From contig CAJXVW010000002.1 in assembly GCA_913062645.1 (NCBI GenBank), forward strand, positions 62,001 to 126,000: DNA of 64,000 nt, written 5' to 3'. Within the stretch, counting starts at the first letter, position 1; every line of letters starts with the position of its first letter. Source of the stretch: an uncultured Mycoplasmatota bacterium (lineage in GTDB: Bacteria; Bacillota_I; Bacilli_A; Izemoplasmatales; Izemoplasmataceae). Below are positions 1-25,957 of the stretch, one piece after another. Below the pieces are notes generated by a model. The model saw only the letters and a list, made by a program, of their open reading frames with translations. It ran no database searches and was not told the DNA's origin. The translations under genes and the position numbers were made by a program.

Positions 1-1085
1 TGCATCATGTCCGCCTTGTTGAGCATGCAGGCGCCGCAATGAACGACCAGTTGCACGTCATCGAGCTCTTTCGGGAACGAGTATCCGCTCGAATACAGGA
101 ACTCGAAATCCTTGCCGGTATGCTGCCGCAACCAGCGGGGAATCTTGACGGTGCCGATGTCATCACTCTGGCGATGGTGGGTACATCCTTCGCTGATCAG
201 GATCTTGTCACCATTCTTGAGTGATTCAATGGCCACGGCACCTTTGACGAGTTCCGGCAGATCGCCTTTGTTGCGGGCGAACAGAATCGAAAAACTCGTC
301 AGGGGAACACTGGGCGGGGTGTCGGCGCTGACTTTCAGGAACGCCTGTGAGTCGGTCACGACCAGCGCCGGCGGTTTGTTGAGATTCATCAATGTCTCAC
401 GCAGTTCGTATTCCTTGGTCACGATGGCGATCGCATCGCTTTCCAGAACATCGCGAATGACTTGTTGTTGCGGCAAGATCAGCCGTCCTTTGGGGGCGGC
501 CTTGTCGATCGGCGTCACCAGTACGACGATGTCACCGGGCTGGATCAGATCGCCGACCAGGCGGAACTTCTCCTCTTCGATCTCGAGCGTGGTGCCGATC
601 GCCTCCTTGAGTTCATGAATGCCAGTGCGATCAACGGCGCTGACCAGATGAACGTCGTCGTCGAACACACGCTGGTAGTCCTGGTTCGCCGATGCATCGA
701 TCTTATTGCCGACCAGGAGATAGGGTTTCTTACGTTTTTTGAACTCCTTGATCAGACGCAGTTCATCGTCAAAGGCGCGTTGTGCGACATCGAACACGAT
801 CAGTCCGATATCGGTTTTGTTGATCACGTCGTAGGTTCGGTCGACGCGCATCGTGCCGAGCACTCCGACATCGTCGATGCCGGCGGTGTCAATCAACACA
901 CACGGGCCGAGCGGCAGAATCTCCATGCTTTTGAAGACCGGATCGGTTGTCGTTCCGGCGACGTTGCTGACGAGCGAAATGGATTGATTGGTGAGCGCGT
1001 TGATGACGCTGCTCTTGCCAACATTGCGGCGGCCGAAGATGGCAATGTGGGTGCGGTTCGACCGCGGAGTACGGTTCATGGACAT
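1..1085 (-). CDS. hydF: [FeFe]-hydrogenase H-cluster maturation GTPase HydF (C-terminus cut by window edge)
   Basis: HydF is the GTPase scaffold on which the 2Fe subcluster of [FeFe]-hydrogenase is assembled before transfer to HydA. The reverse-strand translation opens with a GTPase P-loop (GRRNVGKSS), a DTAG switch II and an NKID base-recognition motif. It then shows the HydF cluster-binding pattern: CTHH followed about 50 residues later by HCGAC, which bind the [4Fe-4S] cluster. The frame runs off base 1, so the last few dozen residues are missing. I start it at ATG 1085, because GAGGAG sits 7 nt upstream; ATG 1079 is the alternative. The Shine-Dalgarno lies inside the end of aspA, so the two are translationally coupled. 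It is the last visible gene of the hydE-hydG-aspA-hydF operon. Confidence 0.93.
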   Translation of the reverse strand, partial: MSMNRTPRSNRTHIAIFGRRNVGKSSVINALTNQSISLVSNVAGTTTDPVFKSMEILPLGPCVLIDTAGIDDVGVLGTMRVDRTYDVINKTDIGLIVFDVAQRAFDDELRLIKEFKKRKKPYLLVGNKIDASANQDYQRVFDDDVHLVSAVDRTGIHELKEAIGTTLEIEEEKFRLVGDLIQPGDIVVLVTPIDKAAPKGRLILPQQQVIRDVLESDAIAIVTKEYELRETLMNLNKPPALVVTDSQAFLKVSADTPPSVPLTSFSILFARNKGDLPELVKGAVAIESLKNGDKILISEGCTHHRQSDDIGTVKIPRWLRQHTGKDFEFLYSSGYSFPKELDDVQLVVHCGACMLNKADMM

Positions 1086-1089
1086 CAGA

Positions 1090-2481
1090 TCACTCCTCGA
1101 TGATGCCGGGTTTGGTGATGTTGTAGGGATTGAGCAGTTCGTCCAACTGCTCGTTGGTGAACAAATCTTCGTCTAAGAGCACATCTTTGATCGTCCGTCC
1201 TTCGGCGTGTGCGCGTTTGACGATGGCGCTGGCGCGGTCGTATCCAATCAACGTGATCAACGGTGTGATCAATGCATGTGACTTCTCCAGGTTTTCGAGG
1301 CAGCGCTGTTCATTGACCACCAGCGTCTTGACAACCTTGTTCGTAAAGGCGATCACAGTTCGCTCCAACAGTTCGAGCGATTCCAACAGCGCCTCGGCAA
1401 TCTCGGGCAGGAACGCATTCAGTTCAAGATTGCCGGCGGCGGCAAGATTCGTGATCAAAACGTCATTCGCGATCACGCGCTGGGCCGCTTGAACGGTCAT
1501 TTCAAGAATCACCGGATTGACTTTTCCGGGCATGATCGACGAACCCGCTTGATGGTCTTCCAAGATGATTTCGCCAATGCCGCCGTTTGGTCCGGAGGCA
1601 AGGTAGCGCAGATCGTTGGCGATTTTGTGCAAGGACACGGCGGCCACCTTCAGCAGACCCGATGTCTCGACGATGGCGTCCAAATTCTGAGTCGCGTCAA
1701 TCAGGTTTTCCGCACGGCTGAGTCCGATGTTGGTCGACTGTTGGAGATGTGACGTCATCATGAACGTGTACTTCACTGGCGCGTTCAGTCCGGTGCCGAC
1801 GGCGGTACCGCCGATGTTCATCACGCGCATCCGTTCTTCAACCTTGTAAATGCGCCAACGGTCACGACTGGTGACGCTCGCCCAGGCGCCGAACATCTGT
1901 CCGGCGAGCATTGGTACGGCGTCCATGAGCTCGGTGCGCGACAACTTCAAAACGTGGCCGTATTCACGTTCCTTCGCTTGAAACGCCTGTTGTAGCGACG
2001 CATACGCATCAGCGAGTCGGCGGATGCGTTTGATCGCCGCGATGCGAACCGCGGTCGGATAGGTGTCGTTGGTCGATTGGTGGCGGTTCACGTCGTTGAT
2101 CGGGTGAATCGTGTCATAGTCGCCCAAGGGACGACGGAGCTGCTCGAGGGCGACGTTGGCGACGACCTCGTTGACGTTCATGTTGGTGCTGGTTCCGGCG
2201 CCGCCTTGATGGCGGTTGACAACGAACATGTTGGCGAACTCCCCAGCCAGAATGCGGTCGCAGGCAGTGATGATCGCCGTTGCTTTGTCTTCGTTCAGAT
2301 ATCCCAGTGACCGATTGACGATGGCGGCTTGTTTCTTGATGTTGACCAGCTCGTGAATGATCGCCGGGTGGACCGCGTCGTTCGACACGTTGAAATTGGC
2401 GATCGCCCGGGCGGTCGCGATGCCGTAATAGCAATCATCGGGCAGCTGTATGCTGCCCAGCAAATCCGTTTCGGTGCGCAT
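1090..2481 (-). CDS. aspA: Aspartate ammonia-lyase (aspartase)
   Basis: The enzyme reversibly deaminates L-aspartate to fumarate and ammonium. The 463-residue product has the normal length of the aspartase/fumarase superfamily and carries the catalytic-loop signature GSSIMPGKVNP, plus GGAGTSTNMNVNEV and NRHQSTNDTYPT substrate-binding segments. A strong GGGAGG precedes ATG 2481. It lies between hydG and hydF. Aspartase genes are known to recur in hydEFG clusters; I infer it may supply ammonium or nitrogen for maturation of the dithiomethylamine bridge. Fumarase is less likely, given the context and the sequence around the signature. It ends in TGA overlapping the hydF ribosome binding site. 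Confidence 0.9.
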   Translation of the reverse strand: MRTETDLLGSIQLPDDCYYGIATARAIANFNVSNDAVHPAIIHELVNIKKQAAIVNRSLGYLNEDKATAIITACDRILAGEFANMFVVNRHQGGAGTSTNMNVNEVVANVALEQLRRPLGDYDTIHPINDVNRHQSTNDTYPTAVRIAAIKRIRRLADAYASLQQAFQAKEREYGHVLKLSRTELMDAVPMLAGQMFGAWASVTSRDRWRIYKVEERMRVMNIGGTAVGTGLNAPVKYTFMMTSHLQQSTNIGLSRAENLIDATQNLDAIVETSGLLKVAAVSLHKIANDLRYLASGPNGGIGEIILEDHQAGSSIMPGKVNPVILEMTVQAAQRVIANDVLITNLAAAGNLELNAFLPEIAEALLESLELLERTVIAFTNKVVKTLVVNEQRCLENLEKSHALITPLITLIGYDRASAIVKRAHAEGRTIKDVLLDEDLFTNEQLDELLNPYNITKPGIIEE

Positions 2482-2496: not shown

Positions 2497-3861
2497 CTAG
2501 AAGTACAGGTCTCGTTCGCCTTTGATGATCCGGTAGATGTTGTTTTTGAGTTTGTCCTTGACGGTCTGATGTTTGATCGTTTCGGCGTGATGGAAGATGA
2601 ATTTCAGACCGTGTTCGATCAAGTCTTCATCGCCGTAGTCCATCACGTACTCCGTCAAGGTCATCAGAGCGTTCGGTTCGCAGATGAGACCGATCGTACC
2701 ACCCTTGGCGAGCCGCATGAAGCGGTCACCGGTCCGGCCTTTGCGATAACAGGCGGTACAGTAGGAGGGAATCAGACCACGTCGAATCAGGTCTTTGTTG
2801 ACTTCGAGAACGCTGCGTTCGTCCGCCAGTTCGAACTGATCGTGTTCCTCGATCTCTTCGATTTCATCGTGGTATCCTCCGACTTCGGTCTTGCTGCCGG
2901 CGCTGATCTGCGAGACCCCGTGCTGAATCAGTTCTTCGCGCATTTCCTTGTTTTCTCGCGTGGAGAGAATCAGACCCACATAGGGGACTGCGAGGCGCAA
3001 TACGGTGACGAGTCGTTTGAATTGCTCGTCGTTGATCATGTGCGGGTAGTCCGACAGGCGCATGCCGTCGGCTTTCTTGAGTCGCGGCACGCTGATGGTG
3101 TGGAACCCAACGCCATACTTCTCTTCCAGATACTCGTTGTGAAGAACCAATCCCATGACCTCGAACTTCCAGTCGGCGAGGCCGAACAACACACCGCCGC
3201 CGACATCGTCGATGCCGGCTTCGAACGCTCGGTCGAAGGCATGCAGGTGATAGTCATAGTCGCCTTTCCGGCTCTTTGGATGCTGATCGGCATAGGCATC
3301 GGGATCATAGGTTTCCTGAAACAGGATGTAGGTGCCGATGCCGACCTCGTGGAGTTGCTTGTATTCCTCGACGGTGGTGGCCGCAATGTTTACGTTGATG
3401 CGACGAATCGACGAGTTGTCGTAGATGGTCTTGATCGACTCGACAACGTAATCAATCGGCGTTTCCACAGGATGTTCGCCGACTTCGAGGGCGAGGCGTT
3501 TGTGGCCGAGTTTCTCGAGCGTGATGGCTTGGCGTTTGATTTCTTCTTGGGTCAGTTTTCGGCGATCGAACTTGTTGTCGCGGCGATACCCGCAGTACTT
3601 GCAGTTGTTGACGCAGAAATCGGAGATGTACAGCGGCGCAAATATGACGACCCGGCTGCCGTAGATCTCTTCTTTCAATGTGCCGGCGATGTCATAGATC
3701 TCGCGCAACTGGTCGGGACGATGGGCATTCAGCAACATCGCCACTTCGACGTGGTTCAGTTTCAAGCGCTTGCGCGCTTTGTCCATGATCATCTGAATCT
3801 CTTCCATGGTGGGGTTTTGCGCCGCCTTCAGGACTTTGTTGATGTACGTTTTATCAATCAT
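2497..3861 (-). CDS. hydG: [FeFe]-hydrogenase maturase HydG (radical SAM tyrosine lyase)
   Basis: HydG cleaves tyrosine to p-cresol and dehydroglycine and builds the Fe(CO)2(CN)-cysteine synthon of the H-cluster. The 454-residue protein has the radical SAM motif CVNNCKYC (C-x3-C-x2-C) near residue 85. Its C-terminal extension has YCTACYRKG followed by a third cysteine (GLICEPN), which bind the auxiliary cluster that separates HydG from ThiH. The start overlaps the end of hydE by 8 nt, with AAAGGATGATC as ribosome binding site. It belongs to the hyd maturation operon. Confidence 0.95.
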   Translation of the reverse strand: MIDKTYINKVLKAAQNPTMEEIQMIMDKARKRLKLNHVEVAMLLNAHRPDQLREIYDIAGTLKEEIYGSRVVIFAPLYISDFCVNNCKYCGYRRDNKFDRRKLTQEEIKRQAITLEKLGHKRLALEVGEHPVETPIDYVVESIKTIYDNSSIRRINVNIAATTVEEYKQLHEVGIGTYILFQETYDPDAYADQHPKSRKGDYDYHLHAFDRAFEAGIDDVGGGVLFGLADWKFEVMGLVLHNEYLEEKYGVGFHTISVPRLKKADGMRLSDYPHMINDEQFKRLVTVLRLAVPYVGLILSTRENKEMREELIQHGVSQISAGSKTEVGGYHDEIEEIEEHDQFELADERSVLEVNKDLIRRGLIPSYCTACYRKGRTGDRFMRLAKGGTIGLICEPNALMTLTEYVMDYGDEDLIEHGLKFIFHHAETIKHQTVKDKLKNNIYRIIKGERDLYF

Positions 3862-4978
3862 GACGGATCATCCTTTCGATGTCCACGTGATCGCCGGCGC
3901 TGAAGTCGGCGATGTGGTGGAATGCTTCGATGCGGCGTTTGGTGTCGTCGCGATCGTACTGATCGGTGTCTTTGGCGCGGATCTTGTTCTGATAGATCTC
4001 ATAGAGGGCTTTGTTGGCCTCGGGTGACAGGTTCGGCATCATCACGTTGGCACCGACCATCAGGGCGTTTTCACGCCCGAGCTTGTCGAGCGTGCCGAGC
4101 GCCGTGGTCGCCGGCAGCATCGCCTTCGGACAGACCAGCCGTACGAGCGCGAGCAGGATCAACGTGGCGATCAGCGTTCCCGAGTCGTTTCCGGCCAGTT
4201 CGGTGTCTTCGTGACAGAGGTAGGGACCGATGCCGATCATGTGCGGGTCGAGATCTTTGAGAAACATCAAGTCTTCGACCAGATCGGCGTTGGTCTGCGT
4301 CGGTGAACCGACCATGAATCCGGCGCCGACCTGATAGCCGAGTTCCTTCAGATCATACAGACAGCGGATGCGCTCGTCGAAGTTGGAATCGTTTGGATGC
4401 AGGTGTTCATACAAACGCCTCGAAGCCGTTTCGTGACGCAACAGATACCGATCCGCACCGGCGTCCTTGAGACGCTGGTAGGAGTCTTTGGAGCGTTCTC
4501 CAAGCGACAATGTGATGCGCGTGTCGGGATGGATCGTTTTGATGGAACGAATCAAGCCGGTGAGACGATCATCGGTGAAGTAGGGATCCTCGCCGCCCTG
4601 GAGGACGAACGTGCGGTAGCCGAGTGCGTACCCGCGTTCGACGCAGTCGAGAATCTCGTCGGGTTGGAGTCGATAGCGTTGCAGCGATCGGTTGTTGCGG
4701 TTGATGCCGCAATACCGACAACCGCGGACGCAGTGGTTAGAAATTTCGATCAGGCCACGTAGAAAGACCCGGTTCTGGTAGTGGGGCTGTTTGGCTTCAT
4801 AAGCCCGTTGGAACAGGTGCGCGGTGTCGTCAACGGTGATGTGATCGAGCACGTACAAATACTCATCACGCGTCAGTTCGTGACGTTCGGCCAATCTGTC
4901 GATGAGCGTGCGAACGCGTCGTTTGATCGTGGCGGACGAATCCGTTGCAGACGAAATGTTGGGTAGAATCTTGTTCAT
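3854..4978 (-). CDS. hydE: [FeFe]-hydrogenase maturase HydE (radical SAM)
   Basis: HydE is the radical SAM enzyme that converts the HydG product into the Fe(I) intermediate loaded onto HydF. The 374-residue protein has CVRGCRYCG (C-x3-C-x2-C) at about residues 85-95, followed by the HydE-typical GGEDPYF segment. AGGAGG precedes ATG 4978. It is the first gene of the operon; the promoter and a perfect palindrome lie immediately upstream. The hydrogenase itself (HydA) is not in this window. BioB-like enzymes were considered, but the neighbours and the length favour HydE. Confidence 0.94.
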   Translation of the reverse strand: MNKILPNISSATDSSATIKRRVRTLIDRLAERHELTRDEYLYVLDHITVDDTAHLFQRAYEAKQPHYQNRVFLRGLIEISNHCVRGCRYCGINRNNRSLQRYRLQPDEILDCVERGYALGYRTFVLQGGEDPYFTDDRLTGLIRSIKTIHPDTRITLSLGERSKDSYQRLKDAGADRYLLRHETASRRLYEHLHPNDSNFDERIRCLYDLKELGYQVGAGFMVGSPTQTNADLVEDLMFLKDLDPHMIGIGPYLCHEDTELAGNDSGTLIATLILLALVRLVCPKAMLPATTALGTLDKLGRENALMVGANVMMPNLSPEANKALYEIYQNKIRAKDTDQYDRDDTKRRIEAFHHIADFSAGDHVDIERMIRHD

Positions 4979-5001: not shown

Positions 5002-5030
5002 ATTATACCGAAAACCAAACAAAAACTTCG
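5002..5030 (-). promoter_or_regulatory. hydE operon promoter
   Basis: A perfect -10 TATAAT (5002-5007) lies on the minus strand. The position 17 bp upstream is occupied by a weak -35 (CGAAGT, 5025-5030), formed by the end of the palindrome at 5025-5048. The weak -35 and its overlap with an inverted repeat suggest activator or repressor control. The start site would fall about 17 nt before the hydE start codon. Confidence 0.6.
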
Positions 5031-5048
5031 TAACATATGTTACGAAGT
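5025..5048. promoter_or_regulatory. Perfect 24-bp palindrome: dnaB terminator and/or hydE operator
   Basis: Arms ACTTCGTAACAT and ATGTTACGAAGT abut with no spacer. Read on the minus strand it follows the dnaB stop and is followed by TTTTTGTTTGG, so it can act as the dnaB terminator. It also covers the -35 of the hydE promoter. Its core TAACA-N2-TGTTA resembles Crp/Fnr-family half-sites (PrfA-box-like); it does not match the Rex consensus. Which role it plays cannot be decided from sequence. Confidence 0.65.
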
Positions 5049-5078
5049 CAGTTTAGAAAGTATAAAAAGTAAAGCAAG

Positions 5079-6431
5079 TTACGCGATGTCGCCGATCGGT
5101 GAGGTGCGGGCCTGGGTCGTGATGTTGCCGAAGTAGCTGCACTGCTTGTTGAACGACAGACGGATGTTGTCGACAGTAGTCGCGCCCTGACGGTTCTTGG
5201 CGATGATCAGATCGACGGTGTCGGGATATTTGGATTCCTTTTTCTTGTAGTAGTCGTCGCGGTACATGAAGACGATGATGTCGGCGTCCTGTTCGATCGA
5301 TCCCGAGTCACGCAAGTCGGCCATGATCGGAATCTTGTCCTCGCGGCGTTCGACCTGACGGGAGAGCTGCGACAAGGCGATGACGGGAATCTTGAGTTCG
5401 CGGGCCATCTCCTTGAGCGTCCGCGAGATCTCGGAGACTTCCTGAACGCGGTTCTCCTTGGTCGTTCCGCTGAGCAGCTGAAGGTAGTCGACAATGACCA
5501 GATCGAGTTTTTTCTCCTGGGCCAGTTTGCGACACTTCTGACGCAAGTCGGTGACCTTGACGGTCCCGCTGTCGTCGAACAGGATGTTGAGCTGGCTGAG
5601 CGTTTGTTGGGCGAGTGAGATCTGTTGCCACTGCGTTGGCGACAGACTGCCGGTACGGATGTTCATCGTGTGCACGTGGCTCTCCGCCGACAGCATGCGG
5701 CTGACGAGCTGATCGCTGCCCATTTCGAGACTGAAGAAGGCGACGTAGGGGCGGCTTTCCGTCTTGGCGACGTTGGTCGCGAGGTTGAGCGCGAACGCGC
5801 TTTTCCCCATCGACGGACGGGCGGCGATGATCATCAGTTCCGATTTCTGCAGCCCGAGCGTGTATTCGTTGAGCTGATCGAACCCGGTGTCGAGTCCGGT
5901 GAGTTTGCCGACGTTGTTCTTGGCGTTCTCGGTTTTTTCGATGACGTCTTCAAGGACTTCGCTGACCTTGATGAAATCGGTCGTACGACGTTCCTTGGCG
6001 ATGTCGAAGATGGTCTTCTCGGCGCCGTCGACGAAGTCGATGGCGTCTTCGTTGGTGTAACCGTCCTCGATGATCTTGCGGCAGGCGTCCATGATCCGCC
6101 GGGTGATCGACTTGTCGCGGACGATGTTGATGTAGCTGCCGAGATTGACGATCGACGGGACGCTGTTGATCAGACCGAGGATGTAGTCAATGCCGCCGGC
6201 ATCGTTGAGGAGACCTTTGGTTTCGAGTTTGTTGGAGAGTGTCGTGTAGTCGATTTCGATGTTCTCCTGAAACAGCTCCACCATGGCGGTGAAGATGACC
6301 TTGTGCTGGTAGCGGTGAAAGTCATCGCTTTCGAGTTTGTCGACGAGCGTCTTGATTGCGCCCTGATCGACGAACACGCTGCCCAGGACGGCTTGTTCCG
6401 CTTCGTAGTTGTGTGGCGTGATGCGTTCCAT
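5079..6431 (-). CDS. dnaB: Replicative DNA helicase DnaB (DnaC in Bacillus nomenclature)
   Basis: This is the hexameric 5'-3' helicase that opens the replication fork. The 450-residue protein has the N-terminal DnaB domain (PHNYEAEQAVLGS), a RecA-type ATPase with Walker A ARPSMGKSAFALN, Walker B (LVIVDYLQL), and the DLRDSGSIEQDAD arginine-finger region. AAGGAGG lies before ATG 6431. It follows the gdpP-rplI frame by 12 nt, the same rplI-dnaB order as in Bacillus, and is probably cotranscribed with it. Confidence 0.97.
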   Translation of the reverse strand: MERITPHNYEAEQAVLGSVFVDQGAIKTLVDKLESDDFHRYQHKVIFTAMVELFQENIEIDYTTLSNKLETKGLLNDAGGIDYILGLINSVPSIVNLGSYINIVRDKSITRRIMDACRKIIEDGYTNEDAIDFVDGAEKTIFDIAKERRTTDFIKVSEVLEDVIEKTENAKNNVGKLTGLDTGFDQLNEYTLGLQKSELMIIAARPSMGKSAFALNLATNVAKTESRPYVAFFSLEMGSDQLVSRMLSAESHVHTMNIRTGSLSPTQWQQISLAQQTLSQLNILFDDSGTVKVTDLRQKCRKLAQEKKLDLVIVDYLQLLSGTTKENRVQEVSEISRTLKEMARELKIPVIALSQLSRQVERREDKIPIMADLRDSGSIEQDADIIVFMYRDDYYKKKESKYPDTVDLIIAKNRQGATTVDNIRLSFNKQCSYFGNITTQARTSPIGDIA

Positions 6432-6443
6432 CGGGGTGCCTCC

Positions 6444-6887
6444 TTATTCTTCGACGACGAGCACTTCGATCTGCGCCGTGACGTTCTTGTGCAGTTTCAC
6501 GTCGACCTTGTAGTTGCCGAGCGCGGCGATGTTCTGTTTGAGTTCGATCTTGCGTTTGTCGATGTCGATCTTGTGTTGTTTCTTGAAGGCCGTGGAAATC
6601 TGTTTGGAGTTGACTTTGCCGAACAGCTTGCCGCTTTCACCGATCTTGACGAAGACCTTGACGGGGAGCTTTTCGATCTTCTCCTTGAGTTCTTTCATCT
6701 CTTCCAGAGTCTTGCGTTCGATTTCATCCTGTTTGGCTTTTTCGAGTTCGATCGAATGCAAGTTCTCCTGCGTCGCCTCGATGGCGATTTTGCTGGACAA
6801 GAGGTAATTGCCGTAGCCGGTCGCCACTTCGATGACCTGGCCTTTCTTGCCCTTGCCTTTCAAGTCTTTGATCAGTATTACTTTCAT
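6444..6887 (-). CDS. rplI: 50S ribosomal protein L9, probable independent product from an internal start
   Basis: L9 binds 23S rRNA at the base of the L1 stalk. The 147-residue segment begins MKVILIKDLKGKGKKGQV, the classical L9 N-terminus, and has normal L9 length. AGGAGG (6896-6901) stands exactly 8 nt before ATG 6887 while being read in frame as part of GdpP. I infer that free L9 is made by internal initiation, in addition to, or instead of, the fusion protein. It needs stoichiometric expression with other ribosomal proteins, which a membrane fusion could not give. Confidence 0.75.
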   Translation of the reverse strand: MKVILIKDLKGKGKKGQVIEVATGYGNYLLSSKIAIEATQENLHSIELEKAKQDEIERKTLEEMKELKEKIEKLPVKVFVKIGESGKLFGKVNSKQISTAFKKQHKIDIDKRKIELKQNIAALGNYKVDVKLHKNVTAQIEVLVVEE

Positions 6888-8870
6888 CGGTTTTTCCTCC
6901 TGTACGGTTTCGTTGAGAATCTGAATCAGGTCCAGGCGGACTTGCTTGATGTCATCGGTTTCAATCTGGGCGCCGGCGTTGTTGAGGTGGCCGCCGCCGT
7001 TGAATTTCTCCATCACGACCTGGACGTTGAACCCTTCCAGACTGCGGGCGGAGATGCCGACGGTGGTGGGACCGAGATAGCCGAGTGCGAAGCTGGCGAT
7101 CGTGTCCTCGATCTCAAGGAGGTCGTCGGCGACCTTGGCGAGCAGGTTCCGCGAGGCATCCATGTCCCGGGGAATGATGACGATCGTGAACCGCTTGTGG
7201 ATGACTTCGGCACGGCTCAGAAGTTGGCTCTTGAGTTGAATCTCGTCGAGTCCGGGCCGGAGAATTGTCTTGACCTTGAACGTGTCGGCGCCGTACTTGC
7301 GCAGGAACGCGCTGGCTTCGAAGGTGCGGCTGCCGGTGCGGTACATGAAGTTGTTGGTGTCGACGATGATGCCCGACAACATGACGGTCGCTTCAAAGTT
7401 GTTGATTTCGACGTCCTTGGTCGTCAGTTCGATCATTTCCGCAATCAGTTCGACGCTCGACGAGGCGTATGGTTCGATGTGGCTGATCAGGGCGCCGTCG
7501 ATGGCGTCGTTGAGTTTGCGGTGATGGTCGATGATGACCAGGTTCTTGGTCTTGGCGAGCAGTTTCGGTTCGACTGTCTGGTTGAACGAGTGGTGATCGA
7601 CCAGGATCAGCAAATCCTCCTTGGTGATTTGGTCGAGCGCCCGCGATGGCGTGACGATGTAATCGAGGAAGGTGATGTATTCGTACTCGATCATCTGGAG
7701 GATCTTGGTTACGGTCTTGTCGAGGTTGTCGCGGTCGAGCACGATGTGCGCGTCGCGATTGTAGGCCTGCGCCAGTTTCAAGACGCCCATCGCGGCACCG
7801 AAGGCGTCGGTGTCGGGATGATGATGGGGCACGATGTAAACCGTCTTGTGTTCGTCGAACAGACGTTCGAGTTTCTGGGTGTTGGTGCGGGTCGTGATGC
7901 GCGTGCGTTTTTCGGCGGTGTTGGTGTTGCCGCCGAAGTACATCAGATCGTTGCCTTCGATGTTGACGACGATCTGGTCGCCGCCGCGTGACAACGCGAG
8001 ATCGAGCGCATCCGACGCGATGTCGCCGAGTTTGCTCAGTTTGATGTTGCTGCAGGCGACGCCGGCCGACAGGGTCACGAGAATGCCGTATTCGCGTGAG
8101 ATTTCGGCGACGGTGTCGACGATCTTGAACTCGTTCTTGACGAGGTTCATCAGCGTCTGCTTGTTCATCACGGCGATCAGTTTCGAGTTGGTGAGCGGCG
8201 TGATGTAGAAGCCGAACTCTTCGCCCCAGGCTTCGAGGACTTCGAGATAACGACCCTGAACGAAGCTCCGGTTGGAGACGTCGAGCACGCTGATCGCATC
8301 GTCGAGGTTGTCGAGGTTGAGCATCGCGATGGTGGCCACCGATGCGTCGAATCGGCGTTGCAGTTCTTCGCGTTGGGTGACCTGGGTCAGATAGAGGATC
8401 CGTTCGTTGGTGTCGACTTCGACTTCATACTCGTGGGTGTAGATCCTGGTGATGAAGGTGCCGACGGTGTACTTGCCGATGACGTGTTCGTAAATGTCCT
8501 TGTTGACAAGTTCCAGCGACCGCTGTTCGAGGACGTTCTCAAAGATGTCCTTGGAATAGCCGTTGGCCCATTTGATGTTGTACTTCTGGTCGTAGATGAT
8601 GATCCCGATCGGCAGGTCGTTGACCATCCGTTTTTCAACGATGTCCTTGCGGCTGAGCGTGTCCTTGGTGTCTTGAAGTTTGCGCGACAGCCAGACGATT
8701 TTCTGTGTTTTCTTGCGTTGAATGTGGAGCTGGATGAAGATGTTGATGGCAACCCACATCACTGCCGAAAAAACCAGCGTGGCGGTCAGGTTCGACCAGA
8801 TCAGAACATCCACGACGGCGGTGATGAGAAGCAACATGATGGCGATGATGAGATGTTTGTATTCACTCAA
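6444..8870 (-). CDS. GdpP-type c-di-AMP phosphodiesterase fused in frame to ribosomal protein L9
   Basis: The N-terminal part (about 660 residues) is GdpP: two transmembrane helices (residues 10-50), a PAS-like region, a degenerate GGDEF domain, then DHH/DHHA1 phosphoesterase motifs (HHHPDTDAFGAAMG, VDHHS, VIIDHHRK, GGGHLNNAGA). GdpP proteins degrade the messenger c-di-AMP. The C-terminal 147 residues are a complete L9. The fused arrangement is known from Mollicutes. The start is probably TTG 8870, 5 nt after GAGGTGAT; GTG 8879 is possible, but its ribosome binding site would be poor. No stop codon separates the two parts, yet a full Shine-Dalgarno precedes the L9 ATG (separate entry). Confidence 0.92.
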   Translation of the reverse strand: MSEYKHLIIAIMLLLITAVVDVLIWSNLTATLVFSAVMWVAINIFIQLHIQRKKTQKIVWLSRKLQDTKDTLSRKDIVEKRMVNDLPIGIIIYDQKYNIKWANGYSKDIFENVLEQRSLELVNKDIYEHVIGKYTVGTFITRIYTHEYEVEVDTNERILYLTQVTQREELQRRFDASVATIAMLNLDNLDDAISVLDVSNRSFVQGRYLEVLEAWGEEFGFYITPLTNSKLIAVMNKQTLMNLVKNEFKIVDTVAEISREYGILVTLSAGVACSNIKLSKLGDIASDALDLALSRGGDQIVVNIEGNDLMYFGGNTNTAEKRTRITTRTNTQKLERLFDEHKTVYIVPHHHPDTDAFGAAMGVLKLAQAYNRDAHIVLDRDNLDKTVTKILQMIEYEYITFLDYIVTPSRALDQITKEDLLILVDHHSFNQTVEPKLLAKTKNLVIIDHHRKLNDAIDGALISHIEPYASSSVELIAEMIELTTKDVEINNFEATVMLSGIIVDTNNFMYRTGSRTFEASAFLRKYGADTFKVKTILRPGLDEIQLKSQLLSRAEVIHKRFTIVIIPRDMDASRNLLAKVADDLLEIEDTIASFALGYLGPTTVGISARSLEGFNVQVVMEKFNGGGHLNNAGAQIETDDIKQVRLDLIQILNETVQEEKPMKVILIKDLKGKGKKGQVIEVATGYGNYLLSSKIAIEATQENLHSIELEKAKQDEIERKTLEEMKELKEKIEKLPVKVFVKIGESGKLFGKVNSKQISTAFKKQHKIDIDKRKIELKQNIAALGNYKVDVKLHKNVTAQIEVLVVEE

Positions 8871-8895
8871 GGGAATCACCTCGATTGTTGAGATA

Positions 8896-25510: not shown

Positions 25511-25957
25511 GGCAATAACTTAATTTTTTATTTGTTTTTTGATCAAACACTAATTGTACATGGCGATCAAGCTTGTTAAATGGCCGAGAATCCGCAATAT
25601 TCGTATGAGAACAACATGATCAAAAACACGTTCCAAAACACTCCATTCGATCGGTTTCATACACATTCAGACGGTATTTGCAGTTCTATCACAGTGGATG
25701 CAGGGTAATATCATTATTCAGGATGGAAATCGATGTCAGACGACCTGACGAACTATGAGCGAACAAATATACGATGATTGTCTCGCTCGATCACAGACAC
25801 CATCCAGGATGAATCCCTACAATGTAACCTAGTACCCGTTTCAATTTGATTGAGTTAAGGGTGAACCTTGTTTCAACAAAGCGATTTTTCGAGCATCACT
25901 CCAACAAGAAACGGCCCACGCTAGGTATTTGTCTTTATTTGTATATACAAATAAACC
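25511..25957. other. Gene-free stretch, possibly decayed sequence
   Basis: About 450 bp lack a convincing frame on either strand. Short open segments on the plus strand (25582-25707, opening MAENPQYSYENNMIKNTF) are interrupted soon after. A 22-bp perfect palindrome lies at its right end (25934-25955). The stretch is consistent with remnants of inserted DNA between rpoC and the tRNA gene, but I cannot name a parent gene. Confidence 0.45.
25934..25955. repeat. 22-bp perfect palindrome
   Basis: Arms TTTATTTGTAT and ATACAAATAAA abut exactly, directly beyond the rpoC terminator. It is AT-rich, has no T tract of its own, and has unknown role: operator, extra terminator or chance. Confidence 0.6.

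Follow-up and report, generated by a model that had tools for sequence, protein, structure and literature searches.

The window, meaning the whole stretch of 64,000 nucleotides that was analysed, begins with hydF, an aspartate ammonia-lyase gene, hydG and hydE, all on the minus strand and followed by dnaB on the same strand. The 100-bp gap between dnaB and hydE contains a perfect 24-bp palindrome, ACTTCGTAACAT/ATGTTACGAAGT, at 5025-5048, as the initial annotation had it. The genes and the proposed elements are:

3..1085, minus strand: hydF, maturation GTPase (TIGR03918, 510 bits, cut-off 326), running past the window start
1090..2481, minus strand: aspartate ammonia-lyase, aspA type (NF008909, 597 bits, cut-off 510)
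2497..3861, minus strand: hydG, radical SAM maturase (TIGR03955, 579 bits, cut-off 312)
3854..4978, minus strand: hydE, radical SAM maturase (TIGR03956, 452 bits, cut-off 254.6)
5002..5007, minus strand: –10 element TATAAT of the putative hydE promoter, 22 nt from the operator
5014..5025, minus strand: T-rich tract past the hairpin (T at 7 of the 8 positions past the outer arm)
5025..5029, minus strand: outer arm, 3' side of the RNA stem (covariation of outer pairs)
5025..5048, no strand: 24-bp palindrome, predicted terminator stem enclosing the predicted operator
5030..5043, no strand: inner 14-bp putative operator GTAACATATGTTAC (half-sites invariant in 14 of 14 regions; same 14-mer at a Crp/Fnr-type gene)
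5044..5048, minus strand: outer arm, 5' side of the RNA stem (covariation of outer pairs)
5079..6431, minus strand: dnaB (PF03796 and PF00772), its transcript presumably ended by the hairpin

The identities of hydE, hydG and hydF rest on scores above the NCBIfam cut-offs, and the third gene of the operon scored above the cut-off of the PRK12273 subfamily model and below that of the aspA equivalog model. Aspartate ammonia-lyase genes often adjoin hyd genes, and the enzyme can provide the bridge nitrogen of the H-cluster (accessible portion of PMC11736057). In a row with dnaB, a single open reading frame (6444-8879) fuses GdpP, a c-di-AMP phosphodiesterase part with PAS, GGDEF, DHH and DHHA1 domains, to ribosomal protein L9 with both L9 domains.

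The palindrome is the sole perfect one in the 64-kb window whose arms reach 12 or more; dinucleotide shuffles of the window gave one such palindrome in total over 60 shuffles, and no further copy of the 24-bp sequence was found in the 1.99-Mb genome with up to 3 mismatches allowed. The only other perfect palindrome in the window with arms of at least 10 is the AT-rich TTTATTTGTATATACAAATAAA at 25934-25955.

Read as RNA from the dnaB side, the palindrome forms a hairpin of –18.6 kcal/mol (z –6.1) with a T tract after it. Fourteen distinct dnaB-hydE regions, with dnaB upstream in all 14, aligned gap-free from the stem through the –10 element, and every stem cell in them is paired. The outer 5 pairs are all variable, 4 of them with compensatory changes, and the inner 5 pairs are invariant. 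The observed covariation was reached by 0 of 500 shuffles, and slid versions of the stem were paired in 31–44% of cells. A stable hairpin, a T tract and a stem kept through compensatory change are the features of an intrinsic terminator, and the covarying outer arms and the T tract support the earlier suggestion that the palindrome may terminate dnaB.

The same hairpin, covarying stem and T tract would be expected of a plain dnaB terminator whose likeness to a Crp/Fnr site is accidental. Such a terminator does not account for inner pairs that stay constant in 14 regions where all 5 outer pairs vary, nor for a core kept where the outer stem is not. At a second hydE copy without dnaB upstream (L011 = L023) the core is retained with 1 of 5 outer pairs. 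At the regulator genes described below the core is also kept, with 0–5 outer pairs and 1–4 T among the 8 bases that follow; dnaB-hydE sites have 5 of 5 pairs and 6–7 T. Given the frozen core and the core-only copies elsewhere, we rejected the plain terminator as very improbable. The initial annotation had itself held this outcome open, with conservation confined to stem pairing and no other copies near redox genes; conservation of pairing alone is excluded by the invariant half-sites, and the second copy of the core adjoins a Crp/Fnr gene. Frozen inner half-sites, together with a covarying outer stem and a T tract behind it, support a palindrome that would serve as terminator and operator together.

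The second hydE copy lies, with its own motif, behind an IS110 transposase gene and is followed by a short hydG fragment (L023:1-3239 in G002; L011 in G008). The hydE stretch is identical in the two genomes, which belong to different genera.

On the minus strand the operator is followed by the T tract and then by TATAAT at 5007-5002, which would place the hydE transcription start at about 4995. The –35 position falls in the right arm, where at most 2 of 6 bases match TTGACA at a spacing of 16–18. Across the 14 regions the best –35 candidates at this spacing matched 1–3 of 6 bases, leaving 14 of 14 without a –35, and the gap from operator to –10 is 22 nt in every one. Of the perfect TATAAT and the weak, palindrome-covered –35 originally described, the first therefore stands and the second is better called absent. 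Class II Crp/FNR-dependent promoters have an operator centred at –41.5, a good –10 and no –35. With a start assumed 7 nt past the –10, the fixed 22-nt gap puts the centre of the operator at –41.5, probably a class II activator position.

Among the 21 hydE loci studied, 18 carry the motif GTAAC-N4-GTTAC upstream of the gene, 47–64 bases before the matched start. They represent 15 distinct sequences, since L032 and L036 are duplicates of L006 and L009, and L023 is a duplicate of L011. The three loci without the site are L010, L025 and L041. In L025, from draft G008, hydE is close behind dnaB and there is no hairpin; L041 is an Erysipelotrichaceae genome with hydE. At 5069-5082 of the window, GTAAAGCAAGTTAC, with one mismatch to the motif, overlaps the dnaB stop ~39 bp upstream of the operator.

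A gene of Crp/Fnr type lies at G000:C2:289449-290069 in this genome and encodes a product of 206 residues with PF00027 and PF13545 above the cut-offs. PF13545 matched five times in the genome, the HTH of this regulator being the only match above cut-off; the PF00325 profile gave no match in this genome. The 14-mer GTAACATATGTTAC occurs twice in the genome, at hydE and at G000:C2:289419-289432, 16 bases ahead of the regulator ATG, and the gene and this second copy were located by independent searches. The search for a Crp/Fnr-family gene that the initial annotation had proposed thus yielded one with the same 14-bp palindrome before its own start codon. The idea of a Crp/Fnr regulator of the hyd maturation genes, as first suggested, is accordingly supported by the shared 14-mer. 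In the same-genus relative G002 the hydE site is GTAACCTATGTTAC and the regulator's own site GTAACAAATGTTAC.

A homologue of the regulator was matched in 39 of 61 genomes, among them the present one. The 30 regulator loci studied are those stored from the 39 matched genomes, and 23 of the 30 were aligned. The motif stands just upstream of all 30 homologues, exactly in 28 and with one mismatch in two (L176 and L182; 9/10). Regulators from the ten hyd-bearing genomes fall into a single clade (98/97; 1 change versus 8.5 in shuffles), which may come partly from species descent. No regulator was matched in the hydE-bearing drafts G003 and G008; G003 nonetheless has the hydE site. In the ten hyd-bearing genomes, the regulator promoter has its operator 4–8 nt past the best –10-like hexamer (4 nt in this genome), and at the other 20 loci the distance is 18 nt in 11 of 20 (range 5–23). 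With the operator 4–8 or 18 nt past the –10-like hexamer, a bound protein should block transcription of the regulator.

These blocking positions could also be taken as a hint that the same regulator, at the same operator, represses hydE and is released on a signal, the more so as the hydE site overlaps the –35 region, a position from which a bound protein can keep polymerase away. However, promoters without a –35 in 14 of 14 regions, together with the fixed 22-nt gap, fit a promoter needing help, and a repressor would not need exact spacing. We consider repression at hydE unlikely, and activation by the regulator remains the preferred reading.

A further candidate for the palindrome is Rex or another redox repressor. 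Rex controls hydG and the FeFe hydrogenase genes in Caldicellulosiruptor bescii, according to the available sections of PMC6391272. Against this, PF06971 was unmatched in this genome and matched in only 7 of 61 genomes, and the motif tracks the Crp/Fnr gene. The Rex operator also differs from the present motif. Rex was rejected, its gene not having been found in this genome (no PF06971 match), and binding of the palindrome by such a repressor is highly improbable; a Crp/Fnr protein is the better candidate.

The recognition helix of the regulator, RPSLSR, is invariant in 23 of 23 aligned sequences, and RPSL is found in the helix region of all 30. It carries Pro at the position of CRP Glu-181, the correspondence to CRP R180-E181 having been read by eye. 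In the accessible part of Rodionov et al. (2005; PMC1274295), the HcpR2 branch is assigned the motif GTAACnnnnGTTAC, which is linked to Pro replacing CRP Glu-181. The hydE and regulator sites both fit this motif. As helix and motif both match the published HcpR2 pair, they agree with an independent pairing, and the regulator appears to match HcpR2 in its DNA specificity. The resemblance of the core to Crp/Fnr-family sites, noted at the outset, is borne out by the same pair.

The likeness does not extend to the rest of HcpR. HcpR controls hcp under nitrosative stress, as described in the portions available of the published work, and hcp was not detected in this genome and is present in 5 of 61 genomes. 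In G012 the neighbour of hcp is a different regulator, whose helix reads RRETFSR and which lacks the motif. Met68 of P. gingivalis HcpR aligns with Ala52 of the regulator, and all 23 aligned sequences have His, Ala, Ser or Thr at this position, never Met. Since control of or co-occurrence with hcp and conservation of Met68 were both looked for and neither was found, the regulator is not classed as HcpR; a classical hcp-controlling HcpR was rejected, with hcp not found in this genome and Met68 not conserved. FNR-type Fe-S sensing was likewise rejected, the regulator having no cysteine (0–3 across the 23 aligned rows). In CRP an Arg-Ser pair binds cAMP, and the region of the regulator that would correspond to it has a YPG motif.

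Two observations concern hcp in the relatives. At L192:1378-1391 (G033), GTAACAATCGTTAA matches 9/10 half-site bases ~110 bases before hcp, and given this match a link to hcp is conceivable in some relatives. In G027 (C23, L193-L196) a hybrid cluster protein gene has stops and is split across ~13 kb.

The extent of the regulon was assessed from motif counts and placement. The core TAACANNTGTTA occurs 3 times in this genome, equal to the count for the reversed control; the third exact site is inside an open reading frame. With one mismatch the motif is rare, with 23 occurrences in the genome versus 175 for the reversed pattern. In the 12 genomes with hyd maturation genes, a set that includes G035, which shows hydG alone at a contig end, 39 exact sites were found, 10 at the regulator, 12 at hydE, 14 in open reading frames and 3 in other intergenic positions. 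The count is not enriched in these 12 genomes (39 versus 56 for the reversed pattern); rather than count, placement is enriched. Across the 61 genomes GTAACANNTGTTAC has 27 sites versus 21 in the control. By coordinates, a regulator homologue directly follows 16 of the 27 and hydE follows 6; the remaining 5 are elsewhere, two of them in open reading frames (L151, L220; the other three are L135, L144 and L152). Of the 3 other intergenic sites in the 12 genomes, one belongs to G012; the gene behind it encodes a VitK2_biosynth domain protein, and this site too is 22 nt before a TATTAT. In the same genome (L217:1501-1514), GTAACAACAGTTAC lies in a longer inverted repeat between lipoprotein and ABC ATPase genes.

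Copies near hydA had been anticipated. None was found at any of the four hydA genes, whose loci have no motif match of at least 9/10, and the nearest site with at most 1 mismatch in the genome list is at least 27 kb away; control of hydA by the same site was rejected. The same wiring in other Firmicutes was also rejected: among 74 further loci (L038-L111) scanned over their full length, some covering only a few hundred bases upstream, the exact motif was matched once, in L077, 5.4 kb downstream of hydE. The regulon looks tiny, probably the regulator itself and hydE-hydG-aspA-hydF.

What is read directly from sequence is the pair of sites and how they are conserved, the constant spacing, the covariation and the agreement of motif with helix. 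From these we infer that the regulator binds, where transcription starts, and that hydE is activated and the regulator gene repressed by its own product. In the reading we favour, with a probability of about 0.8, the palindrome is both the dnaB terminator and an HcpR2-type operator for a Crp/Fnr regulator that activates hydE-hydG-aspA-hydF and represses itself. As RNA from the dnaB side it would act as an intrinsic terminator and should halt dnaB transcripts, with transcription of the hyd operon left to a promoter of its own. At the DNA level, the inner 14 bp of the palindrome would be the operator for the regulator encoded elsewhere, at G000:C2:289449-290069. A dimer at –41.5, next to a –10 without a –35, would most likely give class II activation of the operon, and the operator behind the regulator's own –10-like hexamer most likely self-repression, a negative feedback; both effects are suggested by the geometry of the sites. 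More tentatively, and at somewhat less than even odds, Izemoplasma-type wall-less bacteria may gate H2 metabolism at H-cluster assembly and not at the hydrogenase genes. The gate would be a Crp/Fnr regulator dedicated to this role and limiting itself, with a ligand of an unrecognised kind, neither Fe-S, HcpR-type heme nor cAMP, and with its operator fused into the upstream terminator so that read-through cannot bypass the gate.

In zrk13 (Xianfuyuplasma coldseepsis), probably a cultured relative of the same genus, hydEFG are reported to be up-regulated as much as 30-fold in rich medium, an induction that the accessible part of the report (PMC8397711) does not tie to a regulator. Among the open-access literature matches listed there was no precedent for a Crp/Fnr or HcpR regulator of hydE, hydG or hydF, for the motif string, or for a terminator-operator overlap. 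What appears to be new is HcpR2-type Crp/Fnr specificity attached to cofactor maturation, with the operator built into a terminator. The analysis offers a concrete, testable regulator for H2 metabolism in a free-living wall-less lineage, and links to cofactor maturation a DNA specificity known from hcp and nitrosative stress. It also presents a clean natural example of a single palindrome constrained in two separable ways, in its base sequence by a protein and in its base pairing by an RNA.

Compared with known systems, the regulator is like the HcpR2 regulators in its motif, GTAACnnnnGTTAC, and the Arg-Pro of its recognition helix, and differs in its apparent targets, which are hydE-hydG-aspA-hydF and itself in a genome where no hcp was found. 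Unlike HcpR, it does not conserve the heme ligand Met68. The arrangement recalls Rex in C. bescii, a transcription factor over H-cluster maturation and its own gene in the available sections of PMC6391272, whereas the protein family and site are different and the hydA loci here lack the site. The hairpin and T tract, with their compensatory changes, are those of intrinsic terminators, but in the inner half of this stem the sequence does not vary. The hydE promoter resembles class II Crp/FNR promoters in an operator at –41.5 from the putative start, a good –10 and no –35, and departs from them in that the predicted operator sits within the stem that would terminate the upstream gene.
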